A stretch of 41,312 bases of DNA. It comes from Brevinematales bacterium. GTDB taxonomy: Bacteria > Spirochaetota > Brevinematia > Brevinematales > GWF1-51-8. This document shows positions 19,650 through 26,688 of this stretch, one piece after another (the stretch's first letter is position 1; each line of letters opens with the position of its first letter). The stretch lies in NCBI GenBank assembly GCA_013177895.1, contig JABLXV010000038.1, forward strand, positions 1-41,312, read 5' to 3'. The notes under the pieces were generated by a model. That model saw only the letters and a list, made by a program, of their open reading frames with translations, was not told the origin of the DNA and searched no databases. Position numbers and translations under genes: made by a program.

Positions 19650-19697
19650 TTGACGTTTTCCGCCGGATTCTATATATTAGTATATACTAATATATAG
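19650..19697 (+). promoter_or_regulatory. promoter with 28-bp perfect palindrome over the -10
   Basis: TTGACG (19650-19655) and TATATT (19673-19678) are spaced by 17 bases. A perfect 28-base palindrome covers 19670-19697 (half-site CTATATATTAGTAT), overlapping the -10 and start region, an ideal repressor position. The glutaredoxin-like gene begins 12 bases later. Confidence 0.7.
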
Positions 19698-23871: not shown

Positions 23872-23909
23872 TTGACTTTTTAGTATATAGGTATTATAAT
23901 ACCTATATA
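23872..23909 (+). promoter_or_regulatory. consensus promoter with 26-bp palindromic operator (Rrf2 autoregulation)
   Basis: TTGACT (23872-23877), 17-base spacer, perfect TATAAT (23895-23900). A perfect 26-base palindrome spans 23884-23909 (half-site TATATAGGTATTA) and covers the spacer, the -10 and the start point. The Rrf2-family gene begins 12 bases later, so autorepression is the obvious model. Confidence 0.8.
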
Positions 23910-23920
23910 AGGATGTGAGT

Positions 23921-24328
23921 ATGTCTGAATTAGTGCAGATTTCCGAGGCCGCGCTCCTCGCCCTTCATAGTATGGTACTGATCGCCCAGGCGAAGGGCGG
24001 TTGGGTGAGCGTGCATGATATGGCCCGCCGGACCGGGGCGTCGGAGAATCACCTCGCGAAGGTGATGCAGAGGCTGACGCGCGCGAATCTGGTGAGCTCG
24101 GTACGCGGCCCTAAAGGCGGATTTTTACTTACCGGCGCCCCCGACAAGATTTCCCTCCTCGATATCTATGAAGCCATCGAGGGGAAAGTGAATAATGCGG
24201 CATGCCCGTTCCATAAGGACTCATGCCTCTTCCAGTTCTGCATCTTCCATGGGCTGATCGGGAAGACCACCAATGAATTGGTGCGTCATCTCGCGGACAC
24301 ATCTCTTGCCTCGATGGCAGGGTCGTAG
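23921..24328 (+). CDS. Rrf2-family transcriptional regulator, likely Fe-S
   Basis: 135 residues. The winged helix-turn-helix of Rrf2 proteins is clear: SVHDMARRTGASENHLAKVM (recognition part) and the wing LVSSVRGPKGGFLLTG, then ISLLDIYEAIEG. Three cysteines, in ACPFHKDSCLFQFC, lie where IscR/NsrR members hold an Fe-S cluster; the spacing is C-x6-C-x4-C. ATG 23921 is chosen over GTG 23915 because AAGGA is correctly spaced. A palindrome covers its promoter, and a degenerate copy precedes the next gene, a hemerythrin, so it probably senses NO, O2 or iron and controls both. Confidence 0.88.
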   Translation: MSELVQISEAALLALHSMVLIAQAKGGWVSVHDMARRTGASENHLAKVMQRLTRANLVSSVRGPKGGFLLTGAPDKISLLDIYEAIEGKVNNAACPFHKDSCLFQFCIFHGLIGKTTNELVRHLADTSLASMAGS

Positions 24329-24343
24329 TTTTTTTTATGAATA

Positions 24344-24364
24344 ATAGGTATAATGGTACATATA
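24344..24364 (+). promoter_or_regulatory. degenerate Rrf2-like operator with -10 before the hemerythrin gene
   Basis: ATAGGTATAATGGTACATATA matches 17 of 21 positions of the inner part of the palindrome at 23884-23909 and contains TATAAT (24349-24354). The -35 is poor (TAGTTT). The gene starts 22 bases later. This suggests the same regulator acts here. Confidence 0.55.
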
Positions 24365-24385: not shown

Positions 24386-25162
24386 ATGGCTGAAACTTTG
24401 GTAAAAGATGAACATGAGAGGAAAATAGCGCAGTTGAAGGAATTGTTCCGCTCGTTGAAAGACGAGTCCGACCATAAAAAAGCGCTCTATCTGCGAAAGG
24501 AATTCAAGGAGTTTCTTGCCCAGTGCGATGCGCGGGATATTTCCGACGCGGAGAAGGAGCTTGCGAAGGAGGGCTTCACGCTGAAGGATTTCCGCTCCGG
24601 GTGCGACGTGCATCTCGAGCTGATGCGGGAATCCCTCGGTCAGCAGGGTTCGGCTATCCCGGAGGGCCACCCGTTATACCGCTTCCACACTGAGCATGGA
24701 GTGATCTCCTGTTGGATAGAGGAGCTTCTCGGGGCGATTCGCGGCGCTGAGGGAGCGGAAACTTTCGGCGCGGCCGGGGCAGGCCTCGAAACGGTTAAGA
24801 AACTGGCCGCGAAACTGCGCGATTCCGAAAACCACAGCGTGCGGCAGGAAAACGCGTTATTCCCGCTGCTGGAACAGCGCGGCATCACCGAACCCCCGAG
24901 AGTGATGTGGGGCGAGCATAAGGAGATGAAGGAGATGAAGACCTCGATAGAAACCGCGCTGAACACGATTACCGCGGAAAATTATCAGATCGTGCTTTCA
25001 AAGATGGAAGAAACCGCGCTTCTTCTCGCGGAGTATTTCGCGGCGCATACGAGGAAGGAGGAAACAATCCTCTACCCGATCGCGATGAAATCGTTCACCG
25101 GTACGGATTGGAACGACTTTAAAAGCGCGTGCGACGAACTCGGATATTTTTCATTAGAATAA
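24386..25162 (+). CDS. DUF438-hemerythrin domain protein
   Basis: 258 residues from ATG 24386 (AGGAGG upstream; an earlier in-frame start at 24353 lies in the operator). The N-terminal part (1-80) matches DUF438 (KIAQLKELFRSL, LYLRKEFKEFL). The four-helix hemerythrin-like part (about 95-240) shows the diiron ligand pattern: H101/H104, H150-xxxx-E155, H178, H221-xxx-E225. Such proteins bind O2 or NO or help repair Fe-S clusters in anaerobes. In many relatives a PAS domain is fused at the C-terminus; here it is a separate gene 17 bases downstream. Confidence 0.88.
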   Translation: MAETLVKDEHERKIAQLKELFRSLKDESDHKKALYLRKEFKEFLAQCDARDISDAEKELAKEGFTLKDFRSGCDVHLELMRESLGQQGSAIPEGHPLYRFHTEHGVISCWIEELLGAIRGAEGAETFGAAGAGLETVKKLAAKLRDSENHSVRQENALFPLLEQRGITEPPRVMWGEHKEMKEMKTSIETALNTITAENYQIVLSKMEETALLLAEYFAAHTRKEETILYPIAMKSFTGTDWNDFKSACDELGYFSLE

Positions 25163-25179
25163 AACCGACAGGAGGAACT

Positions 25180-25572
25180 ATGAATATCAAAGAATTGCCT
25201 TATGAGACTATCGAGGCTATACTGGACGCGCTATCGATAGATATTTCGTTCGTGGACGCGGAGGATACGGTGAAGTATTTCAACACGCCCAAGAAGGGAC
25301 GGGTATTCCCGCGCTCGAAGCTCGACCTTCAGCGGAAGGTGCAGAACTGTCATCCGCCTCAGAGTCTGGATAAGGTGAATACCATTCTCGACGGGTTCCG
25401 TAACGGGACGCGCGAGGATGCCCCGTTCTGGCTGCAGCTTCACGGGAAGTTCCTGAAAATCGATTATTTCCCGGTAAGGGACGCGGACGGGAAATATCTC
25501 GGTACGCTGGAAATGCTTCAGGATGCGACGGAGTTGAGGGCGTTGGAGGGAGAAAAGAAACTGCTGGACTAA
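25180..25572 (+). CDS. PAS-domain protein (detached DUF438 C-terminal module)
   Basis: 130 residues from ATG 25180 (GGAGG six bases upstream). It begins PYETIEAILDALSIDISFVD and carries FNTPKKGRVFPRS, VQNCHPPQSLDKVNTIL, GKFLKIDYFPVRDADGKYLG and EMLQDATELRALEGEKKLL, exactly the PAS module found at the end of DUF438-hemerythrin proteins. The conserved Cys-His in NCHPP may be a cofactor ligand, possibly heme; this is inference. No DNA-binding or kinase domain is attached. It is the last gene of the Rrf2-hemerythrin group and is followed by a bidirectional terminator. Confidence 0.85.
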   Translation: MNIKELPYETIEAILDALSIDISFVDAEDTVKYFNTPKKGRVFPRSKLDLQRKVQNCHPPQSLDKVNTILDGFRNGTREDAPFWLQLHGKFLKIDYFPVRDADGKYLGTLEMLQDATELRALEGEKKLLD

Positions 25573-25613: not shown

Positions 25614-26195
25614 TTACTTTTTCAGAACCGTATTAATTACGTAGTCAAGGTACTTTTTCCTATCCGCGGGCTTGGAGAAATCCAGACCAGCCAGATATTT
25701 CAGGTAAGACCCCAACATGATGGGCTGAAGGATAGACGACATCAGCACGATACCCTTGAGGGAAACCTGCTCGTCATCCTTTATCCCGGTGATCTCGGCC
25801 GCGATGCTTTTAAACTTACCGAAACGGTTCTTTTCATCCTCTGCGACATGTTTATCATCGGGAACCTTGCCTATCAGGCCGCTGAAAATACTGCGTGTCA
25901 GCGCAGGTGATTTCATCTGATATTCCATCATCTGCTGGAAGAAAGCTTCGAGCCGTTCGACAGGGCTTTTTGACTTATCGTCCAATACGCTGAACATGGT
26001 GTTCATAGTCTCTAAGAAACTCTTGAGACTTTCCTGGATCAAGCTGTCCTTTGAGCCGAAATAGTAATTGATTGCGGCGATATTTACTTTCGCGGCGACA
26101 GCAATTTTCCTGACGGTGATGCTATGAACACCGTCCTTGGACATGATTTGAAGGGTAGATTTAATAATCTTATCCTTCGTCTTTTCACGTTTCAT
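25614..26195 (-). CDS. TetR-family transcriptional regulator
   Basis: 193 residues from ATG 26195, which has GGGGAGG upstream; an in-frame start at 26219 lacks one. The N-terminal helix-turn-helix is typical: DKIIKSTLQIMSKDGVHSIT, then VRKIAVAAKVNIAAINYYFGSKDSLI. The C-terminal ligand domain (about 60-193) is helical and does not point to a ligand. It is the second gene after a minus-strand Rrf2 regulator, 79 AT-rich bases apart. Neither has an obvious target gene in the window. Confidence 0.9.
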   Translation of the reverse strand: MKREKTKDKIIKSTLQIMSKDGVHSITVRKIAVAAKVNIAAINYYFGSKDSLIQESLKSFLETMNTMFSVLDDKSKSPVERLEAFFQQMMEYQMKSPALTRSIFSGLIGKVPDDKHVAEDEKNRFGKFKSIAAEITGIKDDEQVSLKGIVLMSSILQPIMLGSYLKYLAGLDFSKPADRKKYLDYVINTVLKK

Positions 26196-26274
26196 AAATA
26201 ACCTCCCCAGAGATTTCACAACAATAAAGTAATAAGAAAATAAAAATATTTCAAATATTTACTAAAATATTTTA

Positions 26275-26688
26275 TTAATTTTTAACTAATAAGTCATTTA
26301 AACTACGATTTTTCATTAAATCCACGACTTGGTCGGACATTTCATGCCAAAAGTCGCCTACCGCGCAGCGCTTCTTCGCCTTACGGTAACAATTTTTTAC
26401 TCCGCGAACGCACGGTACGAAGGTCATATCCTCGTTCAATGCAGACGCGATCTCATAAATATTGATCTTCTTAGGGTCTTTTATCAGCTTATACCCGCCG
26501 CCCTTACCCCTGTTTCCTTTGATAAACCCCGCCTTCACGAAGGAAGAAATAATCTGTTCCAGATATTTGTTGGATATCTGCTCCTCCTCGGCGATATGGG
26601 AAATGGAGACCAGTTCGTTGCGTCCGTAATACACCGCGATATTGGACATAAAACGGAGACCGTAACGAAGCTTTGTAGGCATTTTCAT
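26275..26688 (-). CDS. Rrf2-family regulator, IscR-like
   Basis: 137 residues. The start KLRYGLRFMSNIAVYYGR, the helix-turn-helix SISHIAEEEQISNKYLEQII, and the wing GFIKGNRGKGGGYKLIKDPK are classic Rrf2. The cysteine set FVPCVRGVKNCYRKAKKRCAV (C-x6-C-x6-C) fits a [2Fe-2S] or [4Fe-4S] sensor. The start has GAGGGG upstream. It differs clearly from the Rrf2 gene at 23.9 kb, so the locus has two such sensors. A promoter-like TTGACG-16-TATATT lies upstream on the minus strand near 26748-26775. Confidence 0.88.
   Translation of the reverse strand: MKMPTKLRYGLRFMSNIAVYYGRNELVSISHIAEEEQISNKYLEQIISSFVKAGFIKGNRGKGGGYKLIKDPKKINIYEIASALNEDMTFVPCVRGVKNCYRKAKKRCAVGDFWHEMSDQVVDLMKNRSLNDLLVKN

Follow-up and report, generated by a model that had tools for sequence, protein, structure and literature searches.

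An Rrf2-type regulator with a conserved palindromic promoter site next to a DUF438-hemerythrin gene in Spirochaetota

The window analysed here, a whole stretch of 41,312 nucleotides, comes from a Spirochaetota metagenome-assembled genome near the Brevinematales bins. It contains a gene for an Rrf2 regulator (P0001), whose closest relative is found in GWF1_49_6 (92% identity), and the promoter of this gene is covered by an exact palindrome (O1). This raises the question of which protein binds the palindrome, which genes are controlled from it and which signal they respond to. Taken as a whole, we consider it quite probable from sequence comparison that P0001 is an NsrR-related autorepressor of the Fe-S type, which would be bound at O1 and released by NO or related stress.

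Gene order and promoter palindrome

The regulator gene (23921..24328, + strand; 135 aa) was assigned to the Rrf2 superfamily by PF02082 (96.7 bits, cut-off 30) and TIGR00738 (95.7 bits, cut-off 73.3), which bears out the identity proposed in a preliminary description of this DNA. It is followed consecutively on the same strand by the genes for a DUF438 and hemerythrin HHE protein (P0002, 258 aa; 24386..25162, + strand; PF04282 and PF01814), which is the predicted target, and for a PAS_10 protein (P0003, 130 aa; 25180..25572, + strand; PF13596) as the third gene of the operon. Neighbouring orthologues of P0003 were seen in loci L004-L006, L020 and L081, and P0002 and P0003 may be the split form of a single DUF438-hemerythrin-PAS protein. 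In two other loci (L139 and L140), a DUF438-type protein of 419-433 aa, compared with 258 aa for P0002, follows Hcp. Further downstream are a TetR gene (25614-26219) and a second Rrf2 gene (P0004; 26275-26688, - strand). P0004 is nearer to IscR/CymR-type models, under their cut-offs, and its gene and promoter region have been kept in L004-L006; an O1-type operator for this gene was rejected, as no such palindrome lies upstream. A promoter of its own, TTGACA...GATAAT, is also present at a third Rrf2 gene of the genome (L001, G000:C62:8892-9281), and an AT-rich inverted repeat at this promoter, although imperfect, suggests that the gene may likewise be autoregulated.

The promoter of the P0001 gene consists of a -35 box TTGACT (23872..23877, + strand) and, at a spacing of 17 bp, a -10 box TATAAT (23895..23900, + strand). 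The latter lies inside O1, the exact 26-bp palindrome TATATAGGTATTATAATACCTATATA (23884..23909, unstranded; conserved in orthologues), whose half-sites are TATATAGGTATTA/TAATACCTATATA and which is followed by AAGGA and then by the Rrf2 ATG at 23921. The promoter-palindrome arrangement reported earlier is therefore present at 23872-23909. O1 is far beyond chance: no match with up to three mismatches was obtained in 100 dinucleotide shuffles of the window, and the longest perfect palindromes of the window itself are of 28 and 26 bp, all others having at most 16 bp. It is extremely unlikely that O1 is an accident of an AT-rich promoter or a hairpin of an RNA or terminator. The palindrome is AT-rich and lies over TATAAT, and palindromic AT promoters do occur; however, shuffles and reversed controls yielded none or almost none, and in the matrix described below no part carries more information than GG...CC. 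The transcription start is expected near 23907, so that a hairpin would hardly be transcribed, and the upstream gene is divergent, so that no terminator is needed at O1. On the basis of this geometry and of the lack of any Rfam match at O1, a terminator or RNA element was rejected.

The 28-bp perfect palindrome, CTATATATTAGTATATACTAATATATAG (19670-19697), lies over the -10 box of a promoter with TTGACG, ahead of a glutaredoxin-like gene (80 aa), and is kept at this gene in four of four genomes of the genus. One extra match is present per genome, in three of them at a small 4Fe-4S ferredoxin-like gene and in the remaining one upstream of a thioredoxin-reductase-like gene; the reversed control gave no matches. 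This palindrome looks like a separate, putative thiol/redox operator.

A weaker operator-like site (O2), ATAGGTATAATGGTACATATA (24343..24364, + strand; 12.7 bits), could be identified in the gap between the Rrf2 and DUF438 genes. In the register 24344-24364 it agrees with the inner O1 palindrome at 17 of 21 bases, and it overlies a TATAAT at 24349-24354, just as the preliminary description had noticed; in the register that begins one base earlier, the agreement is 16 of 21. At the proper distance, a recognisable -35 box is missing and TAGTTT is found. The second site proposed for the hemerythrin gene is thus real, albeit weak and without a good -35 box. Within the genus, rrf2 and O1 are present in all four genomes, and O2 is identical in L004, persists in a re-diverged form in L006 (14.9 bits) and has disappeared from L005.

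In a scan of the whole 3.6-Mb genome, exact matches to TAGGTATNNTNNTACMTA, a pattern drawn up after both sites had been seen, were found only at O1 and O2. When one or two mismatches were allowed, the count in this genome was not above that of the reversed pattern, and consensus-pattern counts in six relatives were mostly equal to the reversed control. Thus, short patterns produce too much noise, and useful information comes only from the matrix applied near homologues. In this genome, the regulon appears to be confined to one operon, which would serve the hemerythrin protein. The idea of a small regulon is supported by conservation and by independent genomes.

Conservation of the operator

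Searching GTDB species genomes at the protein level yielded 80 loci, and 78 upstream regions were used to build a matrix by expectation-maximisation with palindromic symmetry. The matrix consensus is TAGGTATTnnAATACCTA (wwTAGGTATTnnAATACCTAww); the asymmetric half-motif suggested before gave way to the conserved motif (T)AGGTATTnnAATACC(T). An O1-type palindrome occurs upstream of Rrf2 orthologues in about a dozen phyla, its carriers being found in Spirochaetota, Atribacterota, Cloacimonadota, Bacillota, Neomarinimicrobiota, Planctomycetota, Synergistota, Glassbacteria, Kiritimatiellota/Victivallales, Armatimonadota, Sumerlaeota, Gastranaerophilales and Desulfarculus-type bacteria. This footprint and the independent genomes discussed below support the palindrome as the operator of the Rrf2 regulator, as well as autoregulation; instances of the motif beyond chance AT-rich matches do occur. 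Scores of at least 14 bits were reached in 36 of the 78 upstream regions, the 99.9% quantile of the maxima in shuffled regions being 13.8. When 559 kb of homologous loci were scanned with the matrix, 63 sites of at least 13 bits were found compared with one in the reversed control; it should be noted that these are the same loci that built the matrix, and that independent support comes from L134-L138 and the Hcp-selected set.

Of these 63 sites, 36 lie at rrf2, and other sites were located before frdX, hcp, cupin or DUF438 genes, among others; 27 were not tagged as rrf2-start, a few of which still are (overlap by a longer ORF). The non-rrf2 sites precede a DUF438 gene in L006, a cupin gene in L014, ferredoxin-like genes in L017 and L028, hcp in L022, a radical SAM-BATS (hydG-like) gene in L018, L019, L021 and L044, and a PNPOx-like gene in L062. 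In half of the homologues, mostly Bacteroidota, no clear site lies immediately upstream, and for some of these the operator stands at the head of a longer operon, among them that of the hydG-like gene. Part of the clade may therefore have another role. In the Bacteroidota loci L018, L019, L021 and L044, the operator (near 1670-1825) lies before the hydG-like gene, which precedes the Rrf2 orthologue by about 2 kb; this may point to a hydrogenase-maturation operon under the same regulator. Where present, the sites of Bacteroidota tend to GGTAAT and accompany an HHV recognition helix, a pairing that may reflect co-evolution or simple lineage.

The position of the operator relative to the promoter was also conserved. 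In 33 of 67 sites, the distance from the start of a TTGAC-type -35 box to the operator centre was 25 bp (19 sites), 27 bp (8) or 28 bp (6), and the distances in the reversed control were scattered. The operator is thus centred on the -10 box, which is the classical position of an occluding repressor.

Five Spirochaetota relatives (L134-L138), which were found by protein alone and lie outside the matrix set, all carry the operator (18-23 bits). A second site follows rrf2 in L136, L137 and L138, and in L136 and L137, whose loci are long enough, the arrangement Rrf2 - site - Hcp - DUF438-hemerythrin is seen; here the DUF438-hemerythrin gene was named because its beginning looks like that of DUF438 proteins, and not from a Pfam run. 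In addition, 30 Hcp loci were picked by Hcp score regardless of Rrf2. A site of at least 14 bits was present in 11 of them, and all 11 of these genomes have a P0001-type Rrf2. Among the 19 lacking a site, only four have it (Fisher 2.5e-5); the number of events is small, however, since a single genus accounts for ten of the 11.

These distributions also bear on the ownership of the palindrome. Both Rrf2 and TetR proteins are palindrome binders, and the TetR gene (25614-26219) and the second Rrf2 gene (26275-26688) are both near, so that either of their products, or an unlinked factor, might be the owner. We regard this as very unlikely, because the operator accompanies P0001 orthologues in different phyla where the second Rrf2 is absent, TetR was never recurrent among the clustered neighbours and the promoter of the second Rrf2 has no such palindrome. 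Moreover, the base after GGTA tends to vary with the recognition helix (xxHL with GGTATT, HHV with GGTAAT), a tendency that is confounded by lineage. We thus strongly infer that P0001 is the protein that binds the operator.

Protein features and the probable signal

Two of the three C-terminal-loop cysteines typical of Fe-S Rrf2 regulators, Cys95 and Cys107, are present in 78 of 78 members and the third, Cys102, in 66 of 78; all three show no or almost no variation among 20 diverse members. In the helix-turn-helix (N43-H44..K47), H44 and K47 are invariant. Elsewhere in the alignment, E9, H16 and S41 vary hardly or not at all. H44 and K47 align with His42 and Lys45 of the NsrR recognition helix, which contact DNA in S. 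coelicolor NsrR (PMC9338935). The NsrR ligand Asp8 is absent at the aligned position in the P0001 family: column 12, which is aligned with NsrR Asp8 and RsrR Glu8 and was placed via the RsrR sequence alignment, is mostly S, A or L. H16, which aligns with RsrR His12, is invariant; the E8 position is non-acidic, and E9, three residues earlier, is nearly invariant. As Asp8 is replaced and Glu9 and His16 are invariant or nearly so, the cluster type and the signal could differ, and these two residues are candidates for the fourth ligand of the putative cluster. None of the NCBIfam equivalogs (IscR, NsrR, RirA, CymR, HypR and SufR-type) reached its cut-off with P0001.

The signal, which may be NO, oxygen or Fe-S status, is less certain and was judged from gene content. 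The operator-bearing neighbours in relatives are mostly an FrdX-like two-cluster ferredoxin (15), Hcp (13), cupin (9) and DUF438-hemerythrin plus PAS (5). Hcp and FrdX form the core of HcpR regulons, and hcp is also found in NsrR regulons for nitrogen oxides (PMC1274295). Since the commonest neighbours are core NO-response genes, NO or nitrosative damage appears to be the likeliest signal. A genome search revealed that hcp is absent from the genome of the window; hence, the NO link in this genome rests on the DUF438-hemerythrin protein and on the relatives.

Hemerythrin domains are oxygen-binding, and the same autorepressor and operator might instead respond to oxygen/redox or to iron/Fe-S supply, with the hemerythrin protein as an oxygen/redox sensor or scavenger of an anaerobe. 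The invariant H16, aligned with His12 as a [2Fe-2S] ligand of the redox sensor RsrR, would be consistent with this, as would the position of some Bacteroidota members beside the hydG-like radical SAM-BATS gene, an oxygen-labile hydrogenase context, and the H2O2 induction of P. gingivalis PG_0686, a hemerythrin-PAS10-DUF1858 protein (PMC10101095). However, the commonest operator neighbours are Hcp and FrdX, the core of predicted NO regulons (PMC1274295), and the position aligned with E8, a ligand of RsrR, does not keep this residue. An oxygen/redox or iron signal seems rather unlikely.

Sequence comparison shows the palindrome, its overlap with the promoter, the phylogenetic footprint, the conserved Cys triad and the gene linkage, from which binding, repression, an Fe-S cluster and the NO signal are inferred. 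According to the preferred NO reading, a P0001 homodimer would sit on TAGGTATTnnAATACCTA centred on the -10 box and block RNA polymerase at its own promoter, so that rrf2, the DUF438-hemerythrin gene and the PAS gene would be repressed. The site O2 would add a second control point, as an internal promoter or an extra operator. NO, or damage to the cluster that Cys95/102/107 are predicted to hold, would release the repressor, and the di-iron protein would be made. In relatives, the same repressor and operator would control Hcp, FrdX-type ferredoxin and cupin genes. More broadly, we give about an even chance to the proposal that an unnamed Rrf2 subfamily, distinct from NsrR and IscR in its ligation (three Cys plus Glu9/His16) and in its operator (TAGGTATTnnAATACCTA), serves anaerobes from about a dozen phyla as their standing NO-stress repressor and would replace HcpR/NsrR over hcp, frdX and DUF438-hemerythrin genes.

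Such a circuit would offer a specific operator and a testable NO-defence regulon for mostly uncultivated anaerobes, and a candidate regulator for hcp-frdX modules whose neighbour is a P0001-type Rrf2 rather than HcpR/NsrR. It would also place uncharacterised DUF438-hemerythrin-PAS proteins in one circuit with Hcp, and Glu9/His16 could be probed as a fresh Rrf2 ligand set.

Comparison with known systems

In the literature searched (subscription papers and RegPrecise lay outside the search), no report combining Rrf2, DUF438 and hemerythrin and no title or abstract on an Rrf2 protein with a GGTATT operator could be found. Thus, we found no earlier description of the Rrf2-operator circuit, and a first description is not claimed.

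Among known regulators, NsrR resembles P0001 in its Rrf2 fold, three-Cys cluster motif and H42/K45-type recognition helix, and its repressor sites likewise lie at NO-defence promoters, including those of hcp and the hemerythrin-like dnrN/ytfE. In contrast, the NsrR operator is gATGyAT-N5-ATrCATc (PMC1274295), compared with TAGGTATTnnAATACCTA for the P0001 family, and P0001 lacks Asp8 and has a Cys spacing of X6/X4 instead of X4/X6. P0001 was thus rejected as NsrR proper, with 38.1 bits against the NCBIfam NsrR cut-off of 182, Asp8 missing and a different operator. IscR shares the Rrf2 fold with three Cys and is an autorepressor. An identity of P0001 with IscR was rejected on the NCBIfam score (61 against a cut-off of 207.55 bits) and because the His ligand after the third Cys is not conserved, column 110 (the IscR His position) having H in 3 of 78 members and mostly Gly. 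RsrR is also an Rrf2 autorepressor, and its ligand His12 is aligned with H16 of P0001, but it has a two-Cys [2Fe-2S] site and its E8 is missing at the aligned position of P0001. As for the target, a hemerythrin-like di-iron fold is expected for P0002 as in YtfE/RIC di-iron proteins, whereas P0002 scored 21 and 20 bits against their cut-offs of 254 and 204.7 and has DUF438 instead. Finally, HcpR/HcpR2, whose motifs wTGTGAnnnnnnTCACAw, wyTTGACnnnnGTCAArw and GTAACnnnnGTTAC (PMC1274295) differ from TAGGTATTnnAATACCTA, resemble the proposed system in the control of the hcp-frdX module in anaerobes, but they belong to the CRP/FNR family and are unrelated to the Rrf2 protein P0001.
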